Assembly: GCF_009184545.1 (NCBI RefSeq)
Contig: NZ_QJOW01000001.1
Span: 124,001-188,000 of the forward strand
Reading direction: 5' to 3'
Source of the DNA: Halosegnis rubeus
GTDB taxonomy: Archaea > Halobacteriota > Halobacteria > Halobacteriales > Haloarculaceae
Length of the DNA stretch: 64,000 bases
The notes beneath the pieces were generated by a model. That model saw only the letters and a list, made by a program, of their open reading frames with translations, had not been told where the DNA came from and did no database searches. Positions 20,542 to 50,681 of the stretch are shown piece by piece. The translations under genes were made by a program, and so were the position numbers. Each line of letters starts with the position of its first letter. Positions within the stretch are counted from its first letter, which is position 1.

Positions 20542-20629
20542 ACCCGGAGGTCGGGTGTCGGTCACATAACGGCTTCCGTCTTCCAGCGGGATACGAAGCT
20601 ACTTGTGGCCGGTGGCGCAACGTCGGATT

Positions 20630-21790
20630 ATGTCGATTCTCGTCACCGGCGGCGACGGCTACATCGGGTGGCCGACCGCCCTCCGCATCGCTACCCGCAC
20701 GGACGAGCGCGTCATCGCCGTGGACAACTGCGCCCGCCGTGAGTGGGTCGCGGAAGTCGGCGCGACCAGTGCGACGTCTGTCGCCGACCCCGAGACCCGC
20801 ATCGAGGCCGCGCGTGAGGTCCACGGCGCGGCGAATCTCTCCTTCGTCGAGGGCGACCTCACGGACCGCGAGTTCGTGCTCCGCCTGCTCGACACGCACG
20901 AGCCGTCGGTCGTCGTGCATACGGCGGCCCAGCCGTCTGCGCCGTATTCGCAGATTAACGGCGAGCGGGCGAACTTCACGCAGCACAACAACATGCAAGC
21001 GACGCGGAATCTCCTGTTCGGGCTGTCCGAACAGGGGCTGACGGACACGCATTTCATCGAGACGACGACGACCGGCGTCTACGGTGCGCCCGAATTCCCG
21101 ATTCCCGAGGGCGGGGCGACGATGGAACACGCGGGCGAACAGGACGAGGTGCCGTTCCCGGCGATGGCGGGGTCGTGGTATCACCTTTCGAAATCACATG
21201 ACGCGGCGAATCTCCGACTCGCCCACGACCAGTTCGATATGCCGATTTCGGACGTGCGGACGGCGATTACCTACGGGGCGGAGACGGAGGAGACGCGGCC
21301 GGACGACCGACTTGCGACGCGGTTCGACTTCGACTACTACTTCGGCGTTGTCGCCCACCGATTCGCGGCACAGGCCGTCGCCGGCTACCCGCTGACGGTG
21401 TACGGCAAAGGCGAGCAGCGGAAGCCGTTCGTCTCGCTTGAGGATGCAGTCGAGGGACTTGCACGGCTTGCGCTTGGGGAGACGCCCGACGGACATACCG
21501 TGTACAATCAGGTGACGCGGCCGATTGCCATCGTCGAGATGGCCGAGACGATTCGCGAGGTTGCTGCCGAGCACGACCTCAATGTTGAGGTCACGCACGT
21601 CGAGAACCCTCGCGACGAGGACGAGACCCACCAGATGGAGATCGACAACGACCGGTACATGGACGTAATTGACGAGCAGCGAGCCACGTTCGCCGACGGG
21701 ATTGACGACGTGTTGGAGACGCTGCTCGCGCACCGAGAGACCATCGTGAGCCACGAGGACCGCTTCCTCCCGGATGCCCTACAGGAATGA
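20630..21790 (+). CDS. UDP-sulfoquinovose synthase-like NAD-dependent epimerase
   Basis: A 386-residue extended SDR. The start MSILVTGGDGYIGWPTA, the strand HTAAQPSAPYSQI, the segment ANFTQHNNMQATRNLLF and the catalytic Tyr/Lys in WYHLSKSHDA match the SQD1/Agl3 family. These enzymes form UDP-sulfoquinovose from UDP-glucose and sulfite, used in sulfolipids in plants and in an N-glycan of Sulfolobus. The stop overlaps the next epimerase as ATGA. A related dehydratase specificity without sulfite cannot be excluded. Confidence 0.8.
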   Translation: MSILVTGGDGYIGWPTALRIATRTDERVIAVDNCARREWVAEVGATSATSVADPETRIEAAREVHGAANLSFVEGDLTDREFVLRLLDTHEPSVVVHTAAQPSAPYSQINGERANFTQHNNMQATRNLLFGLSEQGLTDTHFIETTTTGVYGAPEFPIPEGGATMEHAGEQDEVPFPAMAGSWYHLSKSHDAANLRLAHDQFDMPISDVRTAITYGAETEETRPDDRLATRFDFDYYFGVVAHRFAAQAVAGYPLTVYGKGEQRKPFVSLEDAVEGLARLALGETPDGHTVYNQVTRPIAIVEMAETIREVAAEHDLNVEVTHVENPRDEDETHQMEIDNDRYMDVIDEQRATFADGIDDVLETLLAHRETIVSHEDRFLPDALQE

Positions 21791-22728
21791 ACGTTCTCGT
21801 CACCGGGGGGTGTGGCTACATCGGGAGCGTCCTGATACCACTGCTCCAGCGTGACGACCGTGTGGAGCAGGTCACGGTACTCGATGATTTCTCGGCGAGT
21901 TCGCCGCGGTCGCTGTTCGGCAGTATCGGTTCGGATCTGACCTTTCACAACGGCGACGTGCGCGAGTACGGCGACGTGGAGACGGCGTGTCGCGGGGTCG
22001 ACACGGTCGTCCATCTGGCGGCAATTACCGGGGCTGGCAGTACCCACGAGCGACGGGAGGAGACGTTCGCGACGAATCTGGAGGGCACACGAAATATCCT
22101 CAACGCTGCCGGGAAGACGGGTGTCGACAACGTCGTGCTCGCCTCGTCGTGTAACATCTATGGGCGAGCGCCGGCTCGTGATATCGACGAGTCGGTCGAG
22201 CCGGAGCCGCTGAATCCGTACGCGGAGACGAAAGCTGAATCTGAGTCGCTGCTCCGGGAGGCGAAGGCAGCGTTCGGCTTCGAGGGGACGGCGTTGCGGC
22301 TGGCGACGAACTACGGGAACGCGCCGGGCGTCCGGTTCAACCTCGTCGTGAACCACTTCGTGTTCCGGGCGCTCACGGACCGGCCGCTGACGGTGTACGG
22401 CGACGGATCGAACTGGCGACCGTTCATTCACGTGCGTGACGCGGCACGGGCCTACAAGCACGCGGCACTCGCGCCCGACGACTGGGTCCACGACGTGTAC
22501 AACGTCGGGAGCAACGACGAGAACTACCGGATTGCGACGATTGCGGATATCGTAAGCGAGGAAGTCGCTCCCGTGGATATTTCCTATCTCGACGACGAGC
22601 ACCCCGGGCCGTCGTATCACGTGAACTTCGATCGCCTCGGGGCGACGGGCTACGAGACCGAGTGGACGCTTCGCGAGGGTGTGCGTGACCTCCGGGATGC
22701 GTTCCGTGGCGACGTGGAATCCACCTGA
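21787..22728 (+). CDS. NAD-dependent epimerase/dehydratase (nucleotide-sugar epimerase)
   Basis: A 313-residue extended SDR with the binding motif TGGCGYIGSVLI, the strand ASSCNIYGRAP and the catalytic NPYAETKAESE (YxxxK). Substrate is probably UDP-glucose or a similar sugar, by resemblance to GalE-like enzymes; the exact reaction cannot be read. It overlaps the sulfoquinovose synthase-like gene by 4 bp and is followed 29 bp later by another epimerase, so the three form one sugar-modification operon. Confidence 0.85.
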   Translation: MNVLVTGGCGYIGSVLIPLLQRDDRVEQVTVLDDFSASSPRSLFGSIGSDLTFHNGDVREYGDVETACRGVDTVVHLAAITGAGSTHERREETFATNLEGTRNILNAAGKTGVDNVVLASSCNIYGRAPARDIDESVEPEPLNPYAETKAESESLLREAKAAFGFEGTALRLATNYGNAPGVRFNLVVNHFVFRALTDRPLTVYGDGSNWRPFIHVRDAARAYKHAALAPDDWVHDVYNVGSNDENYRIATIADIVSEEVAPVDISYLDDEHPGPSYHVNFDRLGATGYETEWTLREGVRDLRDAFRGDVEST

Positions 22729-22757
22729 CTTTTGCTCGCGGCCGTCCGCGTTCGGGT

Positions 22758-23726
22758 ATGAGCGAGCCGCCACACGTCGCCGTCACCGGAGCCGCGGGGT
22801 TCATCGGGAGCCGCGTACTCGGGCAACTCCGACGCGACCACCCCGACTGGGAGCTCACCGCGCTGGACAACTTCTACCGTGGCGACATCCGGGAGGTCGA
22901 AGGCGTGCCGGTCGAGCACGTCGACATTCGCCACCGCGACCAACTCACCGACGCGCTCGCGGGCGCGGACGTGGTGGTCCATCTGGCGGCGCTGTCGGGC
23001 GTCGAGAGCTGTGACGCCGACCCAGATCTGGCGTACGAGACGAACGTTGTCGGGACGACGAACGTCGCGTACACGTGCAAGCGCGAGGAGATCGCCCTCG
23101 TCTTTCCGTTCTCGGCGGCCGTGCTCGGCGACCCAACCGAGTTCCCGATTACGACGGCAATGGAGCGCGAGCCGCTGAACTGGTACGGCGAGACGAAGGT
23201 GCTGGGCGAGCAGGCCATCGAGACGCTGGCCGACGGCTCCTTTCCGGCCCACCAGTTTCTCGTGGCGAATCTCTACGGCCAACACACGGTCGGTGACCGG
23301 ACCGTCTCGAAGGATGTCGTCATCGACTTCTTCGTCGAGCGAGCGCTGGCGGACGAGCCGCTGACCGTGTACGAACCGGGGACGCAGGCGCGGAACTTCG
23401 TCCACGTGAACGATGTCGCAAACGCGTTCTGTCTGAGTGCGGAACACCTGCTCGACGCCCACGCGCGCGGGGAGACCGGCAGTACGGCCTTCGAACTCGG
23501 AACCGAGGAAGCGCCGAGCGTGATGGAGATGGCTGAGCTGGTCGCCGCGATTGCTCGCGAGGAACGGGGGCTGGACCCGACGGTCGAACTCGTGGAGAAC
23601 CCGCGTGCGGCCGAGACGCTCGTGGACGAGTTCGGTGTCGAGACGACTGCGGTTCGCGAGACGCTCGGGTGGGAGCCACACCACACAGTCGAGGCGACGA
23701 TTCGCGAGCAACTTCGTGAGGCGTAA
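22758..23726 (+). CDS. NAD-dependent epimerase/dehydratase, third of the cluster
   Basis: A 322-residue extended SDR with TGAAGFIGSRVLGQL at the N-terminus, FPFSAAVLGDPTEF before the active site and WYGETKVLGEQ as the YxxxK motif. It differs from its two upstream neighbours in having FPFS rather than a TSS-type motif, suggesting a distinct substrate. Last gene of the operon; convergent with the small secreted protein at 23791. Confidence 0.82.
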   Translation: MSEPPHVAVTGAAGFIGSRVLGQLRRDHPDWELTALDNFYRGDIREVEGVPVEHVDIRHRDQLTDALAGADVVVHLAALSGVESCDADPDLAYETNVVGTTNVAYTCKREEIALVFPFSAAVLGDPTEFPITTAMEREPLNWYGETKVLGEQAIETLADGSFPAHQFLVANLYGQHTVGDRTVSKDVVIDFFVERALADEPLTVYEPGTQARNFVHVNDVANAFCLSAEHLLDAHARGETGSTAFELGTEEAPSVMEMAELVAAIAREERGLDPTVELVENPRAAETLVDEFGVETTAVRETLGWEPHHTVEATIREQLREA

Positions 23727-23790: not shown

Positions 23791-24231
23791 TTAGTTCGCC
23801 GTCGCCGTCTCGGTTGGTGTCGCGGTGGCCGTCTCACAGTCGATCGTAACGTCCCGTGTAACTTCGACCGACACGTCCTCCCCGTCGGCCGTGACAGTCA
23901 CTGTTCCGGCCGGGGACTGGGTGCTGTCTGCACACGACAGCGCGACTGTCTCCGACGCGCCGGCTGCTAACTCGTTTGGAACACTGTCTGTCACGATTGA
24001 CGCCGGCGTCTCGACTTCGGTCACTGTCAGCAGCGTCCCGAAGTTGTTGGTCAATTGGAGATCACCAGTTGCGGCGTCGTATGCGATACCGACATACGCG
24101 CTGTCATCGTCGGTCGTCCCGATGTCGACGTTTCGATCTGCGTTCAGCGCAGTGAAGCTCCCCGTTCCGACTGACAGGGTGAGTGTCGCAGCGATGACGA
24201 GTGCGAAGACGGCAGCGTGTGTGCGTTTCAT
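23791..24231 (-). CDS. secreted TasA/camelysin-like small protein
   Basis: A 146-residue exported protein. The N-terminus MKRTHAAVFALVIAATLTLS, then VGTGSFTALNADRNVDI, has the GTGxFT motif shared with the two larger surface proteins at 25061 and 27447. The body is an all-beta domain with two cysteines near the end and a short Thr/Pro tail (ATATPTETATAN). It is the downstream gene of an ATGA-coupled pair with the wHTH membrane regulator at 24228. I infer that it is a substrate of the SipW-like peptidase at 29048. Confidence 0.7.
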   Translation of the reverse strand: MKRTHAAVFALVIAATLTLSVGTGSFTALNADRNVDIGTTDDDSAYVGIAYDAATGDLQLTNNFGTLLTVTEVETPASIVTDSVPNELAAGASETVALSCADSTQSPAGTVTVTADGEDVSVEVTRDVTIDCETATATPTETATAN

Positions 24232-24815
24232 GAATTCATCTCCACAGGCGTGTCGCCGCGACCCAGTTGTGACTGGGTGGCGTAGTAGTTGTGATAGACG
24301 GCCGAGACCAGCAGCGTGACTGCGCTTGCGGCCACCAGCCACGCGATATCGGGCAGCAGGACGAACGGGTACGCGTCGACGGCGACGGCCGCGGTCAACG
24401 CTGCGCCGAGCGCCGCCAGTCCGAGATAGTATTCGCTCCACGGGATGTCGTTACCGCGGACCACGTCCAGATACACTTCACACTCCGCTAATCCCGGTGT
24501 TGGCTCGACGAATCCGGCCCGCTTGTCGAACCGCACCAGCCCCGCGTCGTCCAACCGCGGCAGATGTGACTGCTGCAGTGACGTGTACACGCGCTTGCGC
24601 TCCGTCGAATCCACGGCCGCAATCTCCTTTTCGAGTTCCCACGCCGCGACCTGCTCTGCCAGATCACCGAGCTCGATACCCTCTGTTCCCATCAGCGCCT
24701 CCAGCGCGTAGCGCCGTCGCCGGTTCGACAGCGCATCGAACAGCTCACCTTCGGGAACGTGTTTGTCTGTCTCCCCATGCTGGACCCCCACCTGCTGAGC
24801 TTCGGTCGTCCCCAT
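24228..24815 (-). CDS. membrane-anchored winged-helix protein, DUF7344-type
   Basis: A 195-residue protein. Residues 20-105 form a winged-helix domain (LFDALSNRRRRYALEALMG; SLQQSHLPRLDDAGLVRFDK) typical of haloarchaeal DUF7344 regulators. Two membrane helices follow (YYLGLAALGAALTAAVAVDA and DIAWLVAASAVTLLVSAVYH). It probably senses a membrane or envelope state and controls the surface locus. The start at 24815 is preferred, since upstream codons cross an AT-rich promoter. Its stop overlaps the secreted-protein gene as ATGA. Confidence 0.8.
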   Translation of the reverse strand: MGTTEAQQVGVQHGETDKHVPEGELFDALSNRRRRYALEALMGTEGIELGDLAEQVAAWELEKEIAAVDSTERKRVYTSLQQSHLPRLDDAGLVRFDKRAGFVEPTPGLAECEVYLDVVRGNDIPWSEYYLGLAALGAALTAAVAVDAYPFVLLPDIAWLVAASAVTLLVSAVYHNYYATQSQLGRGDTPVEMNS

Positions 24816-25060
24816 ATGATAACACATATATAGATCGTAGTTCATGAGTAATAAAATCACGGCTTTCGTGTGAGTAAATTGGTGCGATAGGTTTGATTGT
24901 ACTCGCCGATTAAAAATATCGATTTTCGCCGTTTCAGGCTGTTGTTGAAGGTTAAATCGCCGACTCAAACGCTCGTTGAACTGTTTCAACAGCCCCAATA
25001 CAGAGTGTGTATGGGTGCACGCGTCTGGTAAGCACGCCCTGTGAGCGTGCGGGACACATC
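24816..25060. promoter_or_regulatory. AT-rich divergent promoter region of the surface locus
   Basis: A 245-bp stretch between the wHTH regulator and the beta-helix protein. It holds several TATA-like elements: TATATA near 24827-24832, TTAAAAATATC near 24919-24929 and GGTTAAATC near 24950. The last two would leave a 5' leader of about 80-110 bases before the ATG at 25061. No gene or repeat is seen. Confidence 0.4.
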
Positions 25061-27439
25061 ATGGAACGACGGAAGTTCATCATCGGCGCAGGGGCATTGG
25101 GAGCTGGAATCAGTACGGCCATCGGCACGGGAGCGTTCACCTCCGTCGAAGCCGAGCGGTCGTTCTCGGTCGCGACCGCCGGAGACGCGGAAGCGTATCT
25201 CCGCATGACGGCCGCTGATAGCCCGAACGCACAGTACGTTGACGAACAGTCTGACACGCTTTCAGTAACGCTTGACTCGCTGAACGAGAATGCTGTCACG
25301 ACTGTCGACGATCTCTTCCTCCTGCAAAACGAGGGAACGCAGGCCATCTCGGTGTATCTCACGGACTCGTCTGATGCGGTGACGTTCGAAGCCGACGGAA
25401 GCTCCGTTGAGGGAGTCGACGGCGCTGTGCGACTCGGCGTCGGTGAGTCAGTCACTGTCGATGTCGAGGTCGACACGACAGACGCGTCCGGTTCGCTGCT
25501 CGACTCCGTCACCGTCATGGCGAAATCACAGGTGTTCGCTGCGGGCGACGACGGCGTCGTGACTGTCGGACCGAGCGGCTCGGGCGTGGACCACAACACG
25601 ATCCAGGCAGGGGTTGATGCGGCTGCTCAACAGGCTGCAAGCGCTGTGCTCGTCGAAACCGGGACCTACGAAGAACAAGTCACGGTTGATTATGATGGTC
25701 TGACTGTTCGAGCAGCACAGAACGGTTCCCCAGTAGTTTCTTCTCCGGATAGCGCAACCCAGACGGTTGAGATTGCCGGCGACGATATCACTACCGAAGG
25801 TCTGACTATTGAGAATGAAGTTGGTGACCATGGTATCTTCCTCGCTGACGATGTGAGCGGGGTCTCTATCGTTGAGAATACTATCCAGAACGTCGGCACC
25901 GGCGACGGCGCTTCGGGTAATCAGCAGGGACTTGCTGGCGATGGTGGTCAAGAAGGAATCAGCATCGTCGGAAATGAGTTCACCAGCATCAGTTCATCAA
26001 TTGGCGAGAACGGATACACTGCCAAGGCAATTTGGCTCTCTGCCAATCCGAACAGCAATGTCAACCCCATTCAAGATGTCACGATTCGCGGAAACAGTAT
26101 CACAGACGTGACGAGCGAGGTGGCAGCATACGGCATCCAACTTCAGTCTGATATCTCTAACGTTGAGATTGATGGAAACATCATTGAGGGCGTCGCTGGA
26201 GACCCGGATAATGATGTCAACGACCGTAGTGATTGGGCGGCAGCCGTGAACCTGAGCAAGGGATCACAAGCCGCCGGCCCGCGTGATATCTCAATCGTTG
26301 ATAACTATCTTGATGCTGTCTCGGCGACAGCTGACGACCCATACCCCGGAACCTCCGTCGTTGTTGAAGGGGAAGCGGAGGCGCGTTCCATCGATGTCAA
26401 CCGTAATGACATCGAAGCACTCGGTGGGATTGTTAACAAGACCAGCTACGGAGTGGTTGATGCGACGAACAACTGGTGGGGCGCACCTACCGGGCCATCG
26501 GGCTTCCAAGAAAACGAGACTGCAACGGCAGTCGACTCTGCTGGAAGCGCGACTGCAAACGGGGACGGCGTTCGTGTTCTCGACTGGAATAACGACGGGA
26601 CGGCGGAAGTCAACTTCGACAACTTCGCTACCGAACCGTTCTACTCGGAGACGCACACAGTTGCAGCCGACTCCTCGGCGGACTTCCAGAGTGTACAGGC
26701 AGCGGTTGACGCCGCACAGCCGACCGATACGATTGAACTGGCTCCTCAAGAATTTAATGGGTCGATCGACGTTCCCGTTGACGACCTAAGTATCAAGGGG
26801 GCAGGCGAAGGTGAAACCATCATCGACACCAGCGCTGATCGAGACTATGGTGTCTCTGTCAGCGGCACTAATTTCACACTTAGCAACCTCACCGTCATCG
26901 GCCCAGACGGTCCCGAATCATCGGGCTATGGTGTCAAGATATCGGACTCTCCCACTCGTGCCCTCAGCAACGTCACTGTGGAGAACGTAACTGTCGAAGG
27001 ATCTGCTCGGTCTGAACTTGACCTCAACTACGTCTCCGATGTGACAATCGACAACGTCACGCTGAACGGAAACGGAACGGGTGGCGTCGGCCTAGCCCTC
27101 ACCGAGTGTACCAATGTGAGTATCTCGAACATCGCGACCAGCGGTAACACCTGGGGCGGTGTCGGGCTTTACTCATACGGTGAAGGCGATTCGAACTACC
27201 AGCGTGACACGGACGGTGTGACGTTCTCTGGTGATAACAGCTACGCCGAGTCGCTCCCAGTCTACCAAGATCCGGCCACCGCCGTGACGAACGTCACCAT
27301 TGGCAGCACGCTGAGCCACAAGCTCTCGACCGACGACGATGCGTTTGTCCGCTACTTCGCGTCTGAGGCAGATGCACAGGCATTTGTCGAATCAGCTGAG
27401 GATTTAACCCCCAGCAACTCAACAATAGAGGAACTGTAG
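25061..27439 (+). CDS. surface protein: DUF1102-like domain fused to right-handed beta-helix
   Basis: A 792-residue exported protein. The signal region is MERRKFIIGAGALGAGISTA followed by IGTGAFTSVEAERS. Residues 30-165 form a DUF1102/TasA-like beta domain (VYLTDSSDAVTFEADGSSVE). From about residue 170 repeated strands such as VTIRGNSITDVTSE and ISIVDNYLDAVSA indicate parallel beta-helix repeats, as in carbohydrate-active or adhesive surface proteins. It ends TPSNSTIEEL with no PGF-CTERM anchor. Codons turn clearly AT-richer from about 25,600, as if the helix part had a different history. The 27447 protein follows 7 bp later. Confidence 0.82.
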   Translation: MERRKFIIGAGALGAGISTAIGTGAFTSVEAERSFSVATAGDAEAYLRMTAADSPNAQYVDEQSDTLSVTLDSLNENAVTTVDDLFLLQNEGTQAISVYLTDSSDAVTFEADGSSVEGVDGAVRLGVGESVTVDVEVDTTDASGSLLDSVTVMAKSQVFAAGDDGVVTVGPSGSGVDHNTIQAGVDAAAQQAASAVLVETGTYEEQVTVDYDGLTVRAAQNGSPVVSSPDSATQTVEIAGDDITTEGLTIENEVGDHGIFLADDVSGVSIVENTIQNVGTGDGASGNQQGLAGDGGQEGISIVGNEFTSISSSIGENGYTAKAIWLSANPNSNVNPIQDVTIRGNSITDVTSEVAAYGIQLQSDISNVEIDGNIIEGVAGDPDNDVNDRSDWAAAVNLSKGSQAAGPRDISIVDNYLDAVSATADDPYPGTSVVVEGEAEARSIDVNRNDIEALGGIVNKTSYGVVDATNNWWGAPTGPSGFQENETATAVDSAGSATANGDGVRVLDWNNDGTAEVNFDNFATEPFYSETHTVAADSSADFQSVQAAVDAAQPTDTIELAPQEFNGSIDVPVDDLSIKGAGEGETIIDTSADRDYGVSVSGTNFTLSNLTVIGPDGPESSGYGVKISDSPTRALSNVTVENVTVEGSARSELDLNYVSDVTIDNVTLNGNGTGGVGLALTECTNVSISNIATSGNTWGGVGLYSYGEGDSNYQRDTDGVTFSGDNSYAESLPVYQDPATAVTNVTIGSTLSHKLSTDDDAFVRYFASEADAQAFVESAEDLTPSNSTIEEL

Positions 27440-27446
27440 ACGCCAA

Positions 27447-28718
27447 ATGAACCAGACACGCACGCTGGCCGCACTCACCGCGCTCCTGTTGCTCGCCGCT
27501 GCGGGAGCAACAGCCACAGGTGCGTTCTCGGGGTCGCCCGACGCGGTCGCGGCCGAACTGGACGCGACCCCGGCCGACGGGCCGAACGGCGCGTACGCGA
27601 CCGTCAGCGAGGACGGCCAGCTCGCAGTCGATCTCGGTGAACGAATCAATCGCCGCGGTGTGACGCGGTTCGCGGGCGTGTTCGAGCTCTCGTACACCGG
27701 GGAAGAATCCGCGACGGTGTGGCTCACGGACGATTCGGACGCGGTGACGTTCACCGCGTTATCGAACTCCATCGAGGGCGAATCGAACGCCATCGAACTC
27801 GGTCCCGGCGAGTCACTCAGCGTCGGCGTGACGGTCGATTCGACCGCCGCTGGGAGTCTCTCGGCCGAGCGCGTGACGCTCCGCACGCTCGTCGACGAGA
27901 ACGGCGAGACCGTCGTCGAGGTCTCACAGCCCGAACCCGGTGTCGTCGAGGCGGAGACGACCGACGCCGCGCCCGACGACCCGGTCGTCATCGACACGAC
28001 GGCAGTCAACGCCGACGCCGAGGCGTCTGACCCGACGCTCGACTCGCTGTCGGTGACGACGACCGAGGAGACCGACCTCACGGTCGAGGTGTCGACCAAC
28101 GACGAGCCGGAGGCTGCACCGGAGCTCGAATCCGAAATCGACGGAGAGACGTTCGGCTATCTCGACGTCGCACACCCGGACACTGTCGACGCGGACATCG
28201 GCGGTGCGAGCTTCGAGTTCTCCGTGCCGAAGGCGACACTCGACGACGCGGGACTCGACCCGGCGGACGTGACGCTCTACCGGTTCAACGCCGGCACGTG
28301 GAACGAGGTGCCGACCTCGGAAGTCGGCGAGTCGCCGGACGCGTTCCTGTTCCGGGCCGACTCGCCCGGACTCTCGGAGTTCGCTATCGGTGAACGCACG
28401 GTCAACGCCGACCCGACGCCGGAGCCGCCGACGGAGACGGACACCCCGACAGCGACACCGACACCGACGGCGACACCGACGGCGACACCGACGGCGACGG
28501 CGACCGAGACCGACGACGGCACCGCGACGCCGACGGCGACGGACACGCCGGAGCCGACGACGACGCCAACCGAAACGGCGACCCCGTCCGCGACGCCAGC
28601 ACCGACCGAGACCGCACCCGCGACGGAGACGAGCGGGAGCCAGCCCGGCTTCGGTGTGCTCGCTGCCCTGGTCGTCGTGGCCGGGACGCTCGCGGCGTAC
28701 CGCCGCCGACAGAGCTGA
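27447..28718 (+). CDS. PGF-CTERM surface protein with DUF1102-like and PGF-pre-PGF domains
   Basis: A 423-residue exported protein. Signal peptide residues 1-27 (LAALTALLLLAAAGATATGA). Residues 35-155 are paralogous to the N-domain of the preceding gene (VWLTDDSDAVTFTALSNSIE). About 185-315 is a PGF-pre-PGF domain (VTLYRFNAGTWNEVPTSEVG; SPGLSEFAIGE). A Thr/Pro linker likely to be O-glycosylated runs to residue 393. The tail SQPGFGVLAALVVVAGTLAA plus an Arg cluster is the PGF-CTERM signal cut by archaeosortase A, giving a lipid-anchored product. It lies 7 bp after the beta-helix gene, same operon. Confidence 0.88.
   Translation: MNQTRTLAALTALLLLAAAGATATGAFSGSPDAVAAELDATPADGPNGAYATVSEDGQLAVDLGERINRRGVTRFAGVFELSYTGEESATVWLTDDSDAVTFTALSNSIEGESNAIELGPGESLSVGVTVDSTAAGSLSAERVTLRTLVDENGETVVEVSQPEPGVVEAETTDAAPDDPVVIDTTAVNADAEASDPTLDSLSVTTTEETDLTVEVSTNDEPEAAPELESEIDGETFGYLDVAHPDTVDADIGGASFEFSVPKATLDDAGLDPADVTLYRFNAGTWNEVPTSEVGESPDAFLFRADSPGLSEFAIGERTVNADPTPEPPTETDTPTATPTPTATPTATPTATATETDDGTATPTATDTPEPTTTPTETATPSATPAPTETAPATETSGSQPGFGVLAALVVVAGTLAAYRRRQS
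28431..28620 (+). repeat. low-complexity Thr/Pro codon repeats
   Basis: Repeats of units such as ACACCGACGGCG encode the TPT/ATPT linker of the PGF-CTERM protein. Similar stretches occur at 32110-32240 and 39610-39745 in other surface genes. They are prone to length change by slippage or recombination. Confidence 0.7.
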
Positions 28719-28727
28719 CGACCTCGA

Positions 28728-28749
28728 GATTCGAGCCAACGCTCGAATC
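28728..28749 (+). terminator. perfect hairpin after the PGF-CTERM gene
   Basis: GATTCGAGC-CAAC-GCTCGAATC gives a 9-bp perfect stem with a 4-nt loop, starting 10 bp after the stop at 28718, followed by a pyrimidine-rich CCCCTTCTTTC. It fits a transcript end or stabilising 3' hairpin. The next 270 bp to the signal peptidase hold no gene that I can support. Confidence 0.5.
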
Positions 28750-29019
28750 GCCGAACCCCTTCTTTCGACGCCGCTGACCGCCCGAGTCACGTCGCCGTCC
28801 GTCGCTGTCAGGCGGCGTTTCGCTGCCGGGTTCGCCACGGCTGGGTACGTCGCCAACACCGCGATCGGTGTGCTCGAGCGCCCGCGTCACTCCCGGCTTC
28901 CCCGACCGAGCCGGGGCCTCTGGAACCGGCCGCCGTCGCCGCCGTGGTGTGGCGGCGGTCTCGTTCGTCGCCGGCCACGTGGCGCAGCCGGGGGTTCGAA
29001 CTGCGTGGCTCCGCAGCGC

Positions 29020-29026
29020 TTAATAT
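29020..29026 (+). promoter_or_regulatory. TATA box of the signal peptidase gene
   Basis: TTAATAT in the context GCGCTTAATATCAC is centred 25 bp upstream of the GTG at 29048. That spacing implies transcription starting at or very near the start codon, a leaderless mRNA, and supports the GTG as the true start. Confidence 0.55.
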
Positions 29027-29047
29027 CACACCAAGTAACAGTTCGCC

Positions 29048-30178
29048 GTGTCGTGGGGCCACCGCGTTCGCGTTCTCTGTCTGGGACTCGCCGCACTCGT
29101 GGTGGCATCGCTGTTCGTCGGGCAGGTGCTCGGCCAGCCCGTGCTCTTGGGCTTCGTCGAGACCGGAAGCATGGAACCGACGCTCCAGCCCGGTGACGGG
29201 TTCATCGCGCTACCCGCCGCTGTCGCCGGGCCAATCGAGGAGGGTGACGTGGTCACGTTCCGCGCGACGACCGTCGGGGGTGGCGGTCTGACGACCCACC
29301 GCGTCGTTGAGACGCAGGGCGGGCAGTTCACGACGAAAGGCGACGCGAATCCGTTCACCGACCAGGCAAGCGGCGAGCCGCCGGTGACGCGAGCGCGAAT
29401 CGTCGCCGTCGCTCCGCAGGTCGGCGGCTCGATTCTCGTCCTCCCGGAACTCGGGACGGTCGCCGTCGGGTCCCAGCAGGTCCTCAACACCGCTGCCCGA
29501 CCCGTCTCGCAGGCCACCGGACTTCCGGTCGCCACAGCCCGTGGCTTCGTCACCGTCGGCTTGACCGTCGGCTTAGCGCTCGCGCTCACGTCCGAGGGAA
29601 CCGGCCCTCCGGCACGCGACCTCGCCCGCGATGTCGGCGTCAACCGCCACCGCATTACGCAGGTCGTCACCGCCGCGGTCGTGGTCGCCGTGACGGCCGC
29701 GATGGTTCTGCCCGCCGGGGCGGCGGCCTTCGAAATCGTCAGCGCCGAACAGGACGCCCCCGGGCCGCGTGTCATCGAACAGGGGGACTCGGAGCAGGCG
29801 AACTACACGGTCGCGAACGGCGGCGTCGTCCCCGTGGTGAGTTATCTCTCCGGCAGCGAGCGAGCGAGCGTCGCCACGGAGCGTGTCGTCACCGCGGCGC
29901 GAAGCCAACAGCAGACGACCGTGACGCTGTCCGCGCCGGCCGAGACGGGGCTGTACCGAGCGACGGTGTCGGAACAGCGGTATCTGGCCGTACTCCCGGT
30001 CGGCGTCATCGACCGGCTGCACGTCGTACATCCCCTCGCCCCGGTCATCGCTATCGACCTCTGGATTGGGGCTGTCGTCTACGGTCTCTTCCGGGTCACG
30101 TTGGGGACGGGACGAACACGACGACGACGCGCGGACCGACCGGGGGCGGTCGCGCGTCGACTGCGGAGGTATCTCTGA
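29048..30178 (+). CDS. SipW-like (ER-type) signal peptidase I with C-terminal membrane domain
   Basis: A 376-residue protein. The peptidase domain carries the catalytic Ser41 in ETGSMEPTLQPGD, His84 in TTHRVVE and Asp99 in TKGDANPF. The Ser-His-Asp arrangement is that of archaeal, eukaryotic ER and Bacillus SipW peptidases, not the Ser-Lys bacterial type. Helices follow at about 165-182 and 212-232, then an external beta domain and a last helix near 345. That C-terminal half is extra compared with minimal peptidases. The GTG start is leaderless. The stop overlaps the DUF5305 gene by one base. It probably processes the TasA-like proteins encoded upstream. Confidence 0.88.
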   Translation: MSWGHRVRVLCLGLAALVVASLFVGQVLGQPVLLGFVETGSMEPTLQPGDGFIALPAAVAGPIEEGDVVTFRATTVGGGGLTTHRVVETQGGQFTTKGDANPFTDQASGEPPVTRARIVAVAPQVGGSILVLPELGTVAVGSQQVLNTAARPVSQATGLPVATARGFVTVGLTVGLALALTSEGTGPPARDLARDVGVNRHRITQVVTAAVVVAVTAAMVLPAGAAAFEIVSAEQDAPGPRVIEQGDSEQANYTVANGGVVPVVSYLSGSERASVATERVVTAARSQQQTTVTLSAPAETGLYRATVSEQRYLAVLPVGVIDRLHVVHPLAPVIAIDLWIGAVVYGLFRVTLGTGRTRRRRADRPGAVARRLRRYL

Positions 30179-31326
30179 TGGACGAACAGACTCTACTCAC
30201 GCTCCGGCGAACCGTTGTGAACAACAGCACCGTCCTGCTCGCGGCGGTCGTCGTGCTCGCACTCGTCGGGGGTGGCGTGGCCTACACCGCCCACTTCGAT
30301 CCCGGGACCGAGTCGGTCGAAGACACCGTCGCCACGTGGGAGACGACCACCGCCTACGACCACTCGGCGAGCGTCACGCGCGAGAACCCGCTCTTCGAGC
30401 AGGGCGTCGTCCTCGCGAACCGAGACGCGTACTTCCTGCGCATCACGCCCGTCCTCGACGGGAGCCACCGGTTTAGCTACGGCGCACCGGCCGGTTCGAT
30501 GACCGTCAGTCTCGACTCGACGCTCGTCATCGAAGCCGTTGACGACGACGGCGAGACGACGTACTGGCAGCGAACGCGACCGCTCGACTCGTTCGAGCGG
30601 TCGAACGTCGCTCCCGGCGAGACCCTTCGACTCCCGTTCAGCGTGAACATCTCGGCGGTCAATCAGGACGTCGAGGAGATTCAAGCCGCAGTGGGGCAAA
30701 CGCCCGGCGAGACGACGGTCGCGATTCGGACCACGGCGACCTACGAGGGAACAATCGAGGGCCAGTCGGTCCGCCGGAGTCGGACGACCGAACTCCCCAT
30801 CCGACTCGCGACCGCGACGTACACCGTCTCCGAGGGGGAGACTGGTCGCCAACAGCGGACGATTACCGAGTCCCGAACCGTGACGCGGAGCTACGAGCCA
30901 CTGTGGACGGTCGGCGGTCCGCTAGCGTTGCTGTTCGGGCTGGTCGGCGTGGTCGCGCTCTCGGTGATCGACACCGACCGCCTCGCGCTGTCCGCGACCG
31001 AGGCGGCCCGGCTCACCTATCTGCGCGACCGCGCGGAGTACCGCGAGTACCTCTCGGAGATTGCGCCGCCGGCCGACCTGTCTGCCCCATCCACGGCGTC
31101 GTCGCTCGCCGCGCTGGTGGATTATGCCATCGACAGCGACTGCGGCGTGTTGGCCGACCACGACGCCGAACCGACGCGCTATCACGTCGTCGACGGCGAC
31201 CGGCACTACGTCTACGAGCCACCGGCCCGGACACAGCCGCCGGCGCTCGGTTCGCTAATTTCAGTTCCGGGTCGAGCCGACGGGACCGACGACACGGAGA
31301 CGCCAGACACAGACGACGACACCTGA
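30178..31326 (+). CDS. DUF5305 family membrane protein
   Basis: A 382-residue protein with two membrane helices, VLLAAVVVLALVGGGVAY (about residues 19-36) and GPLALLFGLVGVVALSVID (about 245-265). Between them is an external beta-rich domain of about 200 residues, and the cytoplasmic tail ends in an acidic stretch. Haloarchaeal DUF5305 proteins are found beside signal peptidases of this kind. TGATG overlap with the peptidase gene indicates co-translation. A role as assembly factor or chaperone for the exported fibre-like proteins is an inference. Confidence 0.8.
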   Translation: MDEQTLLTLRRTVVNNSTVLLAAVVVLALVGGGVAYTAHFDPGTESVEDTVATWETTTAYDHSASVTRENPLFEQGVVLANRDAYFLRITPVLDGSHRFSYGAPAGSMTVSLDSTLVIEAVDDDGETTYWQRTRPLDSFERSNVAPGETLRLPFSVNISAVNQDVEEIQAAVGQTPGETTVAIRTTATYEGTIEGQSVRRSRTTELPIRLATATYTVSEGETGRQQRTITESRTVTRSYEPLWTVGGPLALLFGLVGVVALSVIDTDRLALSATEAARLTYLRDRAEYREYLSEIAPPADLSAPSTASSLAALVDYAIDSDCGVLADHDAEPTRYHVVDGDRHYVYEPPARTQPPALGSLISVPGRADGTDDTETPDTDDDT

Positions 31327-31642: not shown

Positions 31643-32341
31643 TCAACAGACGGCGACCGTCACGTAGACGTACTCGCCGCTCGCGGCGACGCCGACGCCG
31701 ATGTGCTCGGCGTTTTCTAACTCCAGCGTGCGACGCGCTTGGTCGTCAGAGAGCAGGCGGTCGACGAGGCGCTGGCCGACTGTCGCGGGGTCGGCACCCG
31801 AACGCGGCACGCGGGCAAAGCCCTCCATCGTCTCTTTTGCGACGACGTACTGCTCTTGGTTGTTGACGACCCGGCAGTTCGCGATAGTCGAATTCTGTGC
31901 GTAGCGGTCGGCCGTCGTGGAGCCGTCGATGGTGTGGGCGAGTCGCTCGGCGGTCGCCATCTGCTCGCTGTGGCGTTCAGCCATCGCCGAGAGCGCGGCC
32001 GGAAGCTGTCCCTCGGTGCTCATCGCCTCGTTGCCGACCGTCGTCGGGTCGTCCTGGAAGGCCGCGATGTCCCGCTCGACGGCTCGTTCGACACGGACCG
32101 TATCGAGCGTCGGCACTGGCGTCGGGGTCGATGTTGGCGTCGCGGTCGGCGTCGGTGTCGCCGTTCCGTCGTCCGTCGGTGTCGCTGTCGGTGTTGTGGT
32201 CCCGTTGGTAGTCGGTGTGGCCGTCGGCGTCGGCGACTCCGGCGTCGACGGAGCTGGGCCTTGACCCCCGAGCTGTGTCGCGCCGAGACCGACGACGACC
32301 GCGAGCACGACCACTGCGACCGCGAGGAGATTCTTGTTCAC
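31643..32341 (-). CDS. secreted CAP-domain (SCP-like) protein
   Basis: A 232-residue exported protein using a GTG start. The signal or anchor is NKNLLAVAVVVLAVVVGLGA, followed by a Thr/Pro-rich linker (residues 30-75) and a CAP/SCP domain. CAP features are MAERHSEQMATAERLAH, the IANCRVVNNQEQYVVAKE strand and the end HIGVGVAASGEYVYVTVAVC. CAP proteins are often extracellular and bind lipids, metals or cell-surface components. The frame stays open upstream, but a TATA-like element (TTTAACT on this strand near 32413) favours a start near 32341. Confidence 0.78.
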   Translation of the reverse strand: MNKNLLAVAVVVLAVVVGLGATQLGGQGPAPSTPESPTPTATPTTNGTTTPTATPTDDGTATPTPTATPTSTPTPVPTLDTVRVERAVERDIAAFQDDPTTVGNEAMSTEGQLPAALSAMAERHSEQMATAERLAHTIDGSTTADRYAQNSTIANCRVVNNQEQYVVAKETMEGFARVPRSGADPATVGQRLVDRLLSDDQARRTLELENAEHIGVGVAASGEYVYVTVAVC

Positions 32342-32482
32342 CGGCGGCCCCCGCGGCGGTGATCGGACCGGTCGTGCGACGCTGCCATACAGTCGCAGGT
32401 CGCCCGCACACGAGTTAAAGGGTCCGTCACTCCCGGCTCCTGTAGCCAGTACGTCTATTGCCGATGGGGTAGACATTCGGGT

Positions 32483-33106
32483 ATGCCACTCAGTCGCCGC
32501 GCGTTTCTCGCGAGTGCTGGCGTTGCCGCGGGCGGGAGCACGCTCGCCGACCGCGTCGCCCCGGCGACCGGGATGCTCGCGGAGGCTCTCCGTCACACGG
32601 CGTCACAGGAGGACCAAGACGACAACGACGGTTTGGTCAGAACCTTCGAGGACGAGTTTCGACTCCGACGGGACGACCGCCAGACGTACGATTTCGAGTT
32701 CGACACGTCGGTGACCATTCGCTATGACGCCATCGTCCGGTGGGGGAACGCCCAGCCCGGCGTCGACTTCCTGTTTTTCCAGTCCGACGAAGAGTTCGAA
32801 GCCTACCTCGCGGGTCGGCGTGCCCGCTACACGAATCCCGGCTCGCTGTTCGGCGTCGCCAACGTCAACGACTACGTGTTTCAAGATGTCGACGCCGGAC
32901 GCTATCACCTCGCCGTCGACAACACCGACTGGACCGACGGCTTCGGTGAGCCGCTCAACGGCGACCCCCGCGACATCAACGAGACGCCGAACGTCCCCGG
33001 TGGCTCTGCCTCCGACGGCTCCGACGTGCTCGGTATCGATTTCAACTTTCAGGCGACCGAGTTCAATCAGTCCACATCCGATGACTCGAACGGGTCGGAG
33101 ACGTAG
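32483..33106 (+). CDS. Tat-exported protein of unknown function
   Basis: A 207-residue protein with a twin-arginine signal, MPLSRRAFLASAGVAAGGST. The mature part is beta-rich and acidic (TYDFEFDTSVTIRYDAIV; ARYTNPGSLFGVANVNDYVF) and may be a beta-sandwich exposed outside the cell. The C-terminal region is Ser/Asp-rich. No family is recognised. It is divergent from the CAP gene with a 141-bp gap. Confidence 0.72.
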   Translation: MPLSRRAFLASAGVAAGGSTLADRVAPATGMLAEALRHTASQEDQDDNDGLVRTFEDEFRLRRDDRQTYDFEFDTSVTIRYDAIVRWGNAQPGVDFLFFQSDEEFEAYLAGRRARYTNPGSLFGVANVNDYVFQDVDAGRYHLAVDNTDWTDGFGEPLNGDPRDINETPNVPGGSASDGSDVLGIDFNFQATEFNQSTSDDSNGSET

Positions 33107-39504: not shown

Positions 39505-42186
39505 TTAGTTGCCGCGGCGGAGCGCGATGAGCGCTGCGCCAGCGAGGGCAACAATCGCGACTGCGCCACCGAAGCCAGGCTGGCTTCCGGAGGTCTCAGT
39601 CTCGGTTGGACCGCCCTCGGTCGGCGTGTCCGTCGCGGGCTCCGGCGTCGGCGTGTCCGTTGCCGGCTCCGGCGTCGGAGTCGGCGTGTCCGTTGCCGGC
39701 TCCGGCGTCGGCGTGTCCGTTGCCGGCTCCGGCGTCGGCGTGGCCGCTGCCTCGCCAACCGTGCCGTCGATAGTGACAGTCTCAGCGAAGGACTGGCTCG
39801 TGGAAGCCGTCACGGTGAACGTCGTGTCCGAGGCCACGTCCGAGAAGTCGAACGTACCGGAGAACGTTCCATCAGCACCAACGGTGACACCGTTGGCGGT
39901 CTTCAGGAACGGGTTGCTACCCGACGCGCGTGCGCGGATGTTGATCTCCGTGCCCGGTGCGACGTTCGTCGTACCGGTGATTTCCTGACCGGATGCGGCT
40001 TCGACAGTGATGTCGTCGCCACCGTTCAGTTCTGCCGTGCGCTCCTCCACGCTGAAGGAAGCGGTCACGAGTTCGTCCTCGTCACCGGAGACAAGCGCGC
40101 TCTGTGCGAGCACACCGAACTCAACGTCGAAGGTCTGACCGAGGAGGTCAGCCGGTTCGACATCGCCAGCACCCAGTTCCGTGCCGCCACGGGTGAGGGC
40201 TGGGTCTGCCGGGTCAGAGTCATCGAACAGGTTCGTCGTGTCCACTGCAACGAACACGGTGTTGTTCGCGTCGTCTGCAACAACGTTCAGGCCCCCGTTC
40301 TCGTCAAGTTCGCTGAAGTCGACCGTCAGCGGCTCACTGTTCGGGAAGTTCCCTGCCTGCGTTGCAGAGAGCGTGAGCGGGTCACTTGCGTCGCCGTTAG
40401 CCAGCTCGAGAAGAGCTGCTTCGGCATCAGAGTTGTTGGCGTCCATCTCATCAACGAGGGCACCGTAGATGCCGGAGACCTCGATCTGGTGGACAAGCTC
40501 GTCCTGGAATGCGATGGTGGAGTCCTGCGTGATTGCGCCCGCTTCGAGCGCATCGTAGACTGCTTCTTGATCAGCGTCCGTCGGCAGGTCGGCTGCCGTC
40601 CAGAGCTGCATCGAGTCGGTCGAGCGTTCGGTCACCACGAAGGTGCCGACGCCGACGTCATCACCAGCCGAGTCCTGCAGGACGATTTCGTAGTCTGCGG
40701 TTGCGAGCGGGCCGTCAGGCATGATGCCCGGACCATCTTTGGTCGCAGATGCTGTAACCGAATCGTCAGTGTCTGCAGGAGTGAATGCTGCACTGCCTTC
40801 GTCCGCACGGAACGTGTTGAGGTTGACCGTGACTGTACCGTCGGCGTCACCGCCGTTGCCACCGTCTTCCAGCTCAATTTGTGCTTCGTAATTGACGCTA
40901 TCACCGCCAAGGATAATCGTCGCCTCGTCGGTGTTCTCGAGGTTCACAGTGATCTGACCGACGTCACCGCGCTCCTCGGACACGATACCCTCTTCGAGGG
41001 AAACCTGACCCTCTGCGGGGTCGCTGACCGTGAACGTTGCAGAGTCAGCTGCGGTCGTGTCTTCGACACTGAAGTCGAGGGTAAACTCGCCGTTCTTGGC
41101 GTCAGATGGGAACGTTGCCGTAATCGTGTCGCCCTGACCCGAGCTGACACGGACACCGCTCTCATCGGACTCGTAGTCCGTGGCATCGGTGATGACCGAT
41201 GCGAGTTCAGCGTCAGTGTAGTCGGACGAGTCGACAATGATGTTGTATGAACCACCACGGTTCGAGTCAACATCGAAGTCGACCGAGGAACCGTCGCTCG
41301 TGACCGTGTCACTGGACGGGTCAATCGTCAGGCTCTGTTCTGCAATCTCGACACCAGCAACGCCGTCGTCAGAGTTAGTACCTGTCTCGACACCGTTGGA
41401 GCCGAAGAGGAGGAAATCCGAACTGTCCGGGTCCGAGAACACGTAGGTACCCTGCTGGAGGGTACTTGAATCGATGATAGCCTCGCCGTTACCGTCAAGG
41501 GTAACCTCGCGAACGAGGGTCGTCGTCGTGTCGCCCGTGACGCGTCGCAGCGCGAGCGTCTGGTCAGCGTTGGAGTTATCCTTCACGAACATCGTCTGGC
41601 CCTGCCAGCGGATGGAAGCGCTGTCGAAGGTCGTGTCAGCGTCGCCCGAAGAGACGGGCGACGTGGAAGTGCTGATTGTGTAGCTGCCGGTTACTGCATT
41701 CGTTGAGCTCTGTGGGTTCTGGACGAAGGATACATCGTAGGTCTCTACATCAGATGGGTTCGTCACATCATTGAACTTCAGCACAATCGTGTCACCAGCG
41801 TTCAGTGCGGAGCTTCCACCAGCCGTAAGGGTCAGCGTTTGACCGTTGTTGCTGCTGGAAACGCCGGAAACGTCATTGACAGTGGTACCACCCACAGTGA
41901 ACGTTTCGATGTCGCTAGTTCCGACGTCAGCGACGGAGCCATCAAAGTTGCCGTCTGCGCTGAAGTCTACTTCAAATCCATTGAGCGAGCCGGCCTCGTT
42001 GGGGCCGACATCAAGCGATACCTCGTATGTGCCAGTGGCACCTGCCTCTGTGTTAACGGATACAGAAGCGGAGCCGTTGGCGGCCGCAGCAGCGGACCCG
42101 GCAAACGCGATGGAGCCTCCGAAGACGGAGACGACCATCAGCGCCGTCAGGATCAGGCTGCGAACCTTTGTGTTTGTGTCTGTCAT
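39505..42186 (-). CDS. S-layer-type surface glycoprotein with PGF-CTERM anchor
   Basis: An 893-residue exported protein. MTDTNTKVRSLILTALMVVS followed by VFGGSIAFAGSAAAA is the signal peptide of haloarchaeal cell-surface glycoproteins. The mature part is a long row of Asp/Thr/Ser-rich beta domains with several N-x-S/T sites (for example NNTVF, ANNSD), matching BGTF-type S-layer proteins. The Thr/Pro linker (repeats of TPEPATD) and the C-terminal SQPGFGGAVAIVALAGAALI plus ALRRGN form a PGF-CTERM signal for archaeosortase A. The start at 42186 fits the signal peptide; 20 upstream codons do not. It sits among accessory genes. Confidence 0.9.
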   Translation of the reverse strand: MTDTNTKVRSLILTALMVVSVFGGSIAFAGSAAAAANGSASVSVNTEAGATGTYEVSLDVGPNEAGSLNGFEVDFSADGNFDGSVADVGTSDIETFTVGGTTVNDVSGVSSSNNGQTLTLTAGGSSALNAGDTIVLKFNDVTNPSDVETYDVSFVQNPQSSTNAVTGSYTISTSTSPVSSGDADTTFDSASIRWQGQTMFVKDNSNADQTLALRRVTGDTTTTLVREVTLDGNGEAIIDSSTLQQGTYVFSDPDSSDFLLFGSNGVETGTNSDDGVAGVEIAEQSLTIDPSSDTVTSDGSSVDFDVDSNRGGSYNIIVDSSDYTDAELASVITDATDYESDESGVRVSSGQGDTITATFPSDAKNGEFTLDFSVEDTTAADSATFTVSDPAEGQVSLEEGIVSEERGDVGQITVNLENTDEATIILGGDSVNYEAQIELEDGGNGGDADGTVTVNLNTFRADEGSAAFTPADTDDSVTASATKDGPGIMPDGPLATADYEIVLQDSAGDDVGVGTFVVTERSTDSMQLWTAADLPTDADQEAVYDALEAGAITQDSTIAFQDELVHQIEVSGIYGALVDEMDANNSDAEAALLELANGDASDPLTLSATQAGNFPNSEPLTVDFSELDENGGLNVVADDANNTVFVAVDTTNLFDDSDPADPALTRGGTELGAGDVEPADLLGQTFDVEFGVLAQSALVSGDEDELVTASFSVEERTAELNGGDDITVEAASGQEITGTTNVAPGTEINIRARASGSNPFLKTANGVTVGADGTFSGTFDFSDVASDTTFTVTASTSQSFAETVTIDGTVGEAAATPTPEPATDTPTPEPATDTPTPTPEPATDTPTPEPATDTPTEGGPTETETSGSQPGFGGAVAIVALAGAALIALRRGN
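39610..39745 (-). repeat. tandem coding repeats of the TPEPATD linker
   Basis: Near-identical units of 24-30 bp (GTGTCCGTTGCCGGCTCCGG and similar on the plus strand) repeat four times and encode the Thr/Pro/Glu linker before the membrane segment of the S-layer-type protein. Unit number is expected to vary between strains. Confidence 0.7.
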
Positions 42187-42284
42187 TGTTGTTGTATTCC
42201 AATCGGCGGAGACTGAATCGGCGAGCCGCGGTTCGTCGCTCGCCACACAGCGTCCACCATGGGTAGGGGTACGAGGAGATGGGT

Positions 42285-46102: not shown

Positions 46103-46681
46103 TCAGAGTCGAGAAGTTTGGATTACGGGGATTGGGTGTGAACGCAAAGCTTGGTTACTAGCGGGTCTGTTTGGAACGACGCTCGGCGACGCTTCACACC
46201 GTCGGCTGTCGTAACCACTCGCACAAATTTCGTGTGGTGAGCTAGCTCACAGATGGGTTGGCTCCCAGTATGTGCTGCAGCGCTGGTTAGCTAATTCGAT
46301 TCGACCCGAGTAATCATGTGATCAGTCTGCCACAGGTACGGTTCGGCTAAAGGACTGTCACAGTTATCGACGCTTCACATGCAACGGTGGGGTGTCTGTG
46401 TCGTCTCGCTGCGAGCGCTTCTATCACGCCAGCTGTACTACCGGCGTGCGTTCTATCGCAGGGCGTATAGTCCGAGAACGCAGTTTGGAGGGTTGTCATC
46501 GACTCGGTTGGGCATCTCACACGCTGTCATTTCGCTCTAGGTTTTGCTCCTATCGCGTTCCCGTCAGAGATCTATCGATATCGTAGCACAAAATGTTGCC
46601 ACTCGTCTTCAACCTGTCTAGAGTTGTAAATACGGTCAGCGGACGCCACAGTTAAGCCGTTGGTTGAATTGAAATTATACA
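46103..46681. other. 579-bp stretch without a supported gene
   Basis: Lies between the accessory operon and the first polysaccharide gene. Short frames show no acidic bias or family motif. Near the right end AAATTATAC (46,672-46,680) is directly in front of the sugar-transferase ATG, too close to be its TATA box; GTTAAGCC at about 46,651 is better spaced. It probably marks the island boundary. Confidence 0.4.
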
Positions 46682-48103: not shown

Positions 48104-48201
48104 CTGTGTAATTGCACTCACTGGCCAATGTGTGGTAGTAGTGGTTCTACAGTATAGTCACACTACAATAACCCATTTCGGATTCAACAGGCGCTGAGCT
48201 A

Positions 48202-48660
48202 CTACCCATCGATCATCTGTAGATATCGCTCCACATACCGATGCAATTCAGGATACGGTTCGGAGACGACACGCAGTCCGTCGTGTTGGTCGTCGCTCAC
48301 TGTTGGCTCGGATGTAGGCCTGACGACGAAGCCGTTTGCCACGTAGTGCTTGCTGTCGATGCCTGAGAGTTCGGAGGTGTCGTAGAAATGCTCGAAGACA
48401 CCGAGTGACTCGACAATCTCAACCGTACATCCCAACTCTTCGTCTGCAACGCGGTGGACGGCCTCGGTCAGTCGCTCGTTCTTCAGGACGGTTCCACCGG
48501 GGACGAACCACTCGCCTTTCGCCGGTTCGTTCTCGCGTTTGCCCAGCAGGATACCACCATCGTATCTGACCACGAGATCGACCGAGACGAGCGGGATGTT
48601 CTCGATGATAGTGCGCCACTCGGCGTCGGGAATCGGCTGGTCGTCGCTGGGGTCACTCAC
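48202..48660 (-). CDS. NUDIX hydrolase, GDP-mannose mannosyl hydrolase-like
   Basis: A 152-residue protein using a GTG start. The NUDIX region reads KGEWFVPGGTVLKNERLTEA then VHRVADEELGC, a shortened box like that of GDP-mannose mannosyl hydrolases, which lack the usual REVxEE helix, and it also has the GVFEHFYD segment typical of that group. It may remove or balance nucleotide sugars. Its start lies inside the last codons of rfbB (8-bp overlap), indicating translational coupling. Confidence 0.8.
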   Translation of the reverse strand: MSDPSDDQPIPDAEWRTIIENIPLVSVDLVVRYDGGILLGKRENEPAKGEWFVPGGTVLKNERLTEAVHRVADEELGCTVEIVESLGVFEHFYDTSELSGIDSKHYVANGFVVRPTSEPTVSDDQHDGLRVVSEPYPELHRYVERYLQMIDG

Positions 48661-49567: not shown

Positions 49568-49619
49568 ACGTTCGGCTATCGAGCACAACGCAAATGCCTA
49601 CCGGTCACGGTGTGCGGGT

Positions 49620-50498: not shown

Positions 50499-50681
50499 TT
50501 ACTCCAGTCGGTAGCGGTCGCGGTTCGTTTCGTAGTGTTCGCGAACCTCCTCGGAGAGATCAGTGAAGTCGAGAATCTCTCCACAGTCGAGCCCGGGACA
50601 GCGAAGCCGACGGTCTCGTTCCAGTACGTTCGCCGCGACGACGGTTCCACAGTTCGGACAGGTGTGTGTTTCGACGCGCAT
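50499..50681 (-). CDS. small zinc-ribbon protein
   Basis: A 60-residue protein, MRVETHTCPNCGTVVAANVL, then RRLRCPGLDCGEILDF, with C-x2-C and C-x4-C pairs of a zinc ribbon, and a helical C-terminus (LSEEVREHYETNRDRYRLE). It sits between rfbD and rfbA with only 2 bp to the rfbA stop, so it is probably the last gene of the rfbC-rfbA transcript. Function unknown. Confidence 0.7.
   Translation of the reverse strand: MRVETHTCPNCGTVVAANVLERDRRLRCPGLDCGEILDFTDLSEEVREHYETNRDRYRLE

Follow-up and report, generated by a model that had tools for sequence, protein, structure and literature searches.

Gene content of the locus

A stretch of 64,000 nucleotides from the genome of the haloarchaeon Halosegnis rubeus (hereafter the window, to which all coordinates refer) contains a group of six adjacent genes, which a sequence-only reading had presented as a surface-fibre or matrix locus with its own regulator. 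Our analysis indicates that this locus is a variant of a system already catalogued as Taf fimbriae and not a new kind of system. All six genes were found in their places in the window by a check of open reading frames (ORFs) and coordinates. The locus is organized as follows, with each protein named below by the lower coordinate of its gene:

23791-24231, minus strand: TafC-like small exported single-domain protein, 146 amino acids (aa); NCBIfam TafC 8e-16, below cut-off; Taf profile 1e-9; start checked
24228-24815, minus strand: DUF7344 regulator, 195 aa; Pfam DUF7344 2e-29; start picked via the length of homologues
24816-25060: AT-rich divergent intergenic region, read from the sequence, presumably with promoters for both directions
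25061-27439, plus strand: fusion of a pilin domain (TafE/TafA-like) with a right-handed beta helix, 792 aa; TafE 1e-18, Beta_helix 2e-10, 9p0a 2e-12, AlphaFold2
25139-25531, plus strand: pilin (Taf/9p0a) domain of 25061, residues about 27-157; alignment, AlphaFold2
25643-27265, plus strand: beta-helix part of 25061, residues about 195-735; Pfam, AlphaFold2, Foldseek
27447-28718, plus strand: TafF-like protein with signal, Taf domain, PGF-pre-PGF domain, Thr/Pro-rich stalk and PGF-CTERM; NCBIfam
28719-29047: 329-base gap, the site of a rhomboid protease gene in many relatives; locus comparison
29048-30178, plus strand: dedicated signal peptidase with a C-terminal half; TIGR02228 4e-14, invariant triad
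30178-31326, plus strand: DUF5305 membrane protein; Pfam 4e-47, AlphaFold2

The TafC-like and regulator genes share a 4-base stop/start overlap, and 7 bases separate the genes of 25061 and 27447. The combination is of the surface-fibre type that had been proposed, with a dedicated peptidase, a membrane partner, a regulator, an anchored member and a beta-helix member.

Assignment to the Taf families

The fimbrial models of NCBIfam (June 2026) are NF052520 (TafA), NF052521 (TafC), NF052522 (TafE), and NF052523 (TafF), and the three exported proteins of the window gave significant matches, all below the curated cut-offs, to the last three: 23791 to TafC (8e-16), 25061 to TafE (1e-18), and 27447 to TafF (9e-9). 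A reference-type locus, L036 (related loci are cited by their L numbers), encodes TafA, TafC, TafE, and TafF proteins that all score above the cut-offs, together with a regulator, a DUF5305 protein, and a peptidase; these three accessory genes, the regulator being of the DUF7344 type, are shared by the window and L036. The gene order suggests the regulator as TafB and the DUF5305 protein as TafD. With 27447 and 23791 kept out of the training set, a Taf profile derived from relatives also recovered both proteins (7e-11 and 1e-9, respectively).

In the PDB, the pilin profile found a single strong match, the entry 9p0a labelled 'Pilin' (E 7e-41). This sequence shares 92% identity with the pilin encoded in L054, a locus with a regulator, a gene in the TafF position, a peptidase, and DUF5305. 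The 25061 protein itself matches this solved pilin at 2e-12, and its pilin domain aligns over the whole length with the stand-alone pilins of relatives. By sequence comparison, the domain shared by the exported proteins is identified as the Taf/9p0a pilin domain. The open literature searched yielded no publication dealing with Taf fimbriae, with 9p0a, or with DUF1102.

The window and the Taf fimbriae of L036/L037 contain the same protein families and the same peptidase, DUF5305, and DUF7344 partners. However, the window lacks a TafA-type stand-alone pilin, its TafE-like domain is fused to a beta helix, its TafC-like protein is much shorter, and its TafF-like protein carries a PGF-CTERM and is not accompanied by a rhomboid gene. 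Similarly, the pilin domain with its signal end and the locus with peptidase and DUF5305 are homologous to those of 9p0a/L054, whereas 9p0a is a stand-alone protein of 215 aa and the window domain bears about 600 further beta-helix residues.

Exported proteins and signal-end motif

The sequence-only reading had ascribed a common GTG(A/S)FT signal end to the three exported proteins. This pattern is present in 23791 (GTGSFT) and 25061 (GTGAFT), whereas 27447 has the variant ATGAFS, which departs from it. In the collected loci, the strict motif G[TS]G[AS]F[ST] occurs near the N-terminus of 152 of the 320 Taf-type ORFs and of one of the 14,789 other ORFs, and therefore it is not a chance feature. 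The 25061 signal is of the twin-Arg type (MERRKFIIG..GTGAFT); the 23791 protein has a Thr-rich tail and two Cys residues.

In the AlphaFold2 model of 25061, a confident multi-strand beta domain (pLDDT, the per-residue confidence score, of 86-96 at residues about 50-150) is preceded by a loose N-terminal strand of low confidence. Such a segment ahead of a confident domain would fit an unplaced donor strand, without being proof of one. The beta helix is about four times the size of the pilin domain, matches PF13229 at 2e-10, and dominated the Foldseek search. Its matches (GH87, PL6 lyases, epimerases, esterases, and the adhesin PfbA) all had low TM-scores, and it is probably an adhesin or a glycan-binding or -cleaving domain.

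The genome, which is 99.9% complete, encodes just three Taf-domain proteins, all at this locus, and no stand-alone pilin; its sole full-length pilin domain is the one fused to the right-handed beta helix in 25061. Thus, of the proposal that fibre, anchor, and adhesin are encoded together, the anchored and beta-helix members hold, but there is no separate fibre subunit.

Peptidase, membrane partner and regulator

The catalytic triad of the 29048 peptidase, Ser41 (29168-29170), His84 (29297-29299), and Asp99 (29342-29344), is invariant in 31/31 relatives, and its C-terminal half, composed of membrane helices and a beta domain, is present in all 31; the earlier description of a Ser-His-Asp peptidase of SipW type with an extra half was thus confirmed. 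The protein matches TIGR02228 above the cut-off (4e-14) and the SipW model weakly (3e-7), and the peptidase profile matches human SEC11A at 1e-5. Its sequence assigns it to the archaeal SipW/Sec11-type signal peptidases I (S26B). In total, two peptidases of this family were identified in the genome, 29048 and one other.

The DUF5305 protein (PF17231; 4e-47, 160.8 bits against a gathering score of 29) is coupled to the peptidase as had been claimed, with its start and the peptidase stop overlapping by one base at 30178. AlphaFold2 (pLDDT 91) models it as a transmembrane helix, an ectodomain forming a long-stranded beta-sandwich, a second transmembrane helix, and a cytosolic tail. Foldseek returned no specific structural relative for it; the matches were to beta-sandwiches in general, at low TM-scores. 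The regulator, described previously as a membrane-anchored winged helix-turn-helix protein, indeed combines a DUF7344 winged-helix domain (2e-29) with two C-terminal membrane helices, which were read from the sequence. In annotated plasmids, such genes carry only general names ('hypothetical protein', 'signal peptidase I', 'DUF5305').

Predicted anchoring of the TafF-like protein

The 27447 protein contains a PGF-pre-PGF domain (NCBIfam PGF_pre_PGF, 1e-14) and ends in a PGF motif, a hydrophobic stretch, and an Arg cluster (QPGFGVLAALVVVAGTLAAYRRRQS). These tail features, together with an ArtA gene in the genome (1e-94), are those expected of an ArtA substrate of the PGF-CTERM type. The predicted presence of one PGF-CTERM member (1e-4, below cut-off) and one beta-helix member (PF13229) at the locus is in agreement with these data.

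No rhomboid gene was found in the gap at 28719-29047 or anywhere else in the genome. GxSG rhomboids lie between the TafF-like gene and the peptidase in L042, L043, L049, L079, L114, L122, and about 30 more loci. In loci with a rhomboid, the protein in the TafF position has a C-terminal glycine motif (e.g. EEPGGFG) followed by a membrane helix and Arg in 34/38 cases and a near variant in the remaining 4; in loci without a rhomboid, a glycine-type tail was found in 3/13, one of which is the PGF tail of the window itself. The GxSG motif is kept in 55/55 rhomboids of related loci, and one of these proteins matches the rhombosortase model TIGR03902 at 5e-5, below the cut-off. The rhomboid of many related taf loci is apparently dedicated to one fimbrial protein, and with a TafF bearing an E..GGFG-type tail it possibly forms an archaeal rhombosortase-type pair. 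The arrangement resembles the bacterial rhombosortase/GlyGly-CTERM system (PMC3237569) in pairing a GxSG rhomboid with a protein ending in a glycine motif, helix, and Arg; it differs in being archaeal and in scoring below the cut-off, and the window has a PGF-CTERM instead.

Conservation and genomic position

The scan of named genomes with the peptidase alignment detected 273 relatives, from which the best 80 loci were taken; since the loci were chosen via the peptidase and many belong to Halorubrum, the locus counts are not independent. Among the 59 of these loci that are at least 18 kb long, Taf proteins were found in 59, DUF5305 in 56, the DUF7344 regulator in 56, and a rhomboid in 35, and all four core families (pilins/Taf, regulator, peptidase, and DUF5305) in 53. 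The module is thus found repeatedly across Halobacteria. In the usual order, the TafC-like and regulator genes occupy one strand, and the pilins, the TafF-like gene, often a rhomboid, the peptidase, and DUF5305 the other. At the genome level, DUF5305 is present in 39 of 59 relative genomes and also outside the order; the vicinity of 40 DUF5305 genes holds the peptidase in 36/40, a Taf protein in 38/40, and the regulator in 31/40. DUF5305 and Taf proteins occur together in 36 of the 59 genomes, one without the other in 3 and 2, and neither in 18 (p = 3e-10). Co-occurrence of the locus genes, proposed for a survey in the sequence-only reading, is therefore strong.

Four other loci (L044, L077, L106, and L131) also have beta-helix fusions and L130 has a LamG fusion, so the fusion is a recurring theme and not unique to the window. 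L044 and L131 each encode a single giant Taf protein, and their operon strand lacks a short pilin. Another type of locus, which is shorter, was observed in L064, L066, L071, and L072, where a peptidase of about 325-333 aa lies amid Taf-like proteins of 166-187 aa and is followed by DUF5305.

In two congeners, the taf locus spans 8-9 kb and is flanked by a ferredoxin and an amidase gene (L049:5927-13999 and L046:3010-11737). In the genome of the window these two genes abut (L162:8705-8711; G000 C6 about 760700), leaving a clean empty site, and therefore its taf locus sits elsewhere. The 29048 peptidase is 45-46% identical to those of the congeners. Horizontal replacement of the locus is not claimed, as a tree test does not reject a clade with the congeners (p-AU, the p-value of the approximately unbiased test, 0.136).

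Genomic surroundings

The Taf subunit genes (24000-28000) have a guanine-plus-cytosine (GC) content of 0.58-0.59, compared with 0.70 for the peptidase region and 0.65 for the upstream epimerases, three NAD-dependent sugar epimerase-like genes in a row that adjoin the locus (20603-23726). Downstream of DUF5305 lies a gene for an exported CAP-domain (SCP-like) protein with a Thr/Pro-rich stretch (31643-32596, minus strand), and further on one for a 913-aa S-layer-glycoprotein-like protein with a Thr/Pro-rich stalk and PGF-CTERM-like tail at its C-terminal end (39505-42246, minus strand). The region 46600-64000 is a glycan synthesis island with a flippase, glycosyltransferases, nucleotide-sugar enzymes, and sulfatase/phosphodiesterase-like genes (ORFs judged by eye), in which GC content falls to 0.43-0.46 at 54-62 kb.

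Proposed mechanism and alternative explanations

The donor-strand principle has been documented for TasA and some archaeal fibres, and AbpA of Pyrobaculum is cited as TasA-related and donor-strand-complemented (PMC9674648). Together with the gene content, protein families, conservation, co-occurrence, predicted folds, and ArtA gene observed here, this principle suggests a model for the export route, cleavage, donor-strand assembly, and anchoring, and for the role of each protein in assembly. The three Taf-domain precursors would be exported, 25061 probably by twin-arginine translocation (Tat), and cut by the dedicated Ser-His-Asp peptidase at a GTG(A/S)F(S/T)-type site. As in TasA and the archaeal bundling pili, the N-terminal segment freed by this cut may then be donated as a strand to the pilin domain of an adjacent subunit. 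In 25061, the pilin domain would build the structure, possibly a filament, and display the beta helix as an adhesin; the TafF-like 27447 would be the base, lipid-anchored by archaeosortase A via its PGF-CTERM, and the TafC-like 23791 a terminal or minor subunit. Gene neighbourhood suggests that DUF5305 and the peptidase form a membrane platform holding or handing over subunits, and that the membrane-bound DUF7344 protein regulates expression. We assign a probability of roughly 0.6 to this interpretation, i.e. a haloarchaeal Taf-type fimbria/adhesin locus in a reduced, adhesin-fused form with donor-strand assembly and an anchored base.

Several points weigh against it. The TafC, TafE, and TafF matches of the window proteins are all under the curated equivalog cut-offs, and the PGF-CTERM match of 27447 (21.9 bits) is just under its cut-off of 24.5. 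The genome encodes no stand-alone pilin, and therefore a long filament is not assured. The donor-strand step between subunits draws on a single-chain model of 25061, and the roles of DUF5305 and the regulator on gene neighbourhood only.

The lack of a stand-alone pilin among the three Taf-domain proteins would also suit a short, non-filamentous, lipid-anchored adhesin, in which 25061, 27447, and 23791 are joined one to one through donor strands and no fibre is formed; so would the fourfold larger size of the beta helix and the similar composition of L044 and L131. We consider this rather unlikely, since 25061 retains a full pilin domain with the conserved N-terminus of the stand-alone pilins of relatives, and large variable outer domains occur on known fibres, which makes the fusion compatible with polymerisation. 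Another explanation starts from the Foldseek matches, the majority of which are to GH87, PL6 lyases, epimerases, and esterases: on this view, 25061 would present a polysaccharide-active enzyme, its beta helix being a lyase, epimerase, or hydrolase for exopolysaccharide that the Taf domains hold at the surface, and the glycan synthesis island and the S-layer-like gene of the window would provide a setting for it. Display of such an enzyme appears improbable, as the TM-scores are low, the fold is common to non-catalytic adhesins such as PfbA, no catalytic family is significant in Pfam beside the general Beta_helix model, and the LamG domain in place of the beta helix in L130 favours binding. Finally, true membership in the TasA/camelysin-SipW matrix-fibre family, to which a like signal end and the SipW-type Ser-His-Asp peptidase might point, is very improbable, and the camelysin/TasA-like beta domain of the sequence-only reading is reduced to an analogy: hhalign of the pilin profile against TasA (a sequence matching PDB 8aur over all 213 positions) gave a probability of 0.5%, the best value for camelysin (Peptidase_M73, PF12389) in the genome was 0.97, which is no meaningful match, and the PDB match of the profile is 9p0a rather than TasA.

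The resemblance to the tapA-sipW-tasA operon of Bacillus subtilis consists in a dedicated SipW-type peptidase adjoining exported beta-domain fibre proteins, with donor-strand assembly as the working model. However, the subunits have no detectable sequence homology, and the extra half of the peptidase, DUF5305, the regulator, and the anchor have no known Bacillus counterpart. The AbpA bundling pili of Pyrobaculum are likewise an archaeal fibre of beta-domain subunits, and donor-strand assembly is presumed for both; when the PDB was searched with the pilin profile (E <= 10), AbpA was not among the matches.

Biological implications

Three features of the locus are unusual: the fusion of the fibre subunit to a large adhesin-like domain, the lipid-anchor tag on the base, and a genomic place other than that in the two congeners. 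Tentatively, and as a possibility still short of an even chance, the first two may describe a pilin-less Taf system, in which the beta helix of about 600 residues on the only polymerising subunit gives either a studded fibre or a single-unit lipid-anchored adhesin, and archaeosortase replaces the rhomboid in handling TafF. If this is true, a dedicated rhombosortase-type pair would be present in the related loci, the first in archaea. Across related loci, anchoring of the base seems to switch among three modes (rhomboid-linked tail, plain membrane helices, or archaeosortase lipid anchor). The taf locus is thus a widespread haloarchaeal surface module tied to the questions of how donor-strand fibres are processed by a dedicated archaeal peptidase, what DUF5305 does beside this peptidase, and how the base protein is fixed, and the variant found in the window would separate adhesin display from fibre building.

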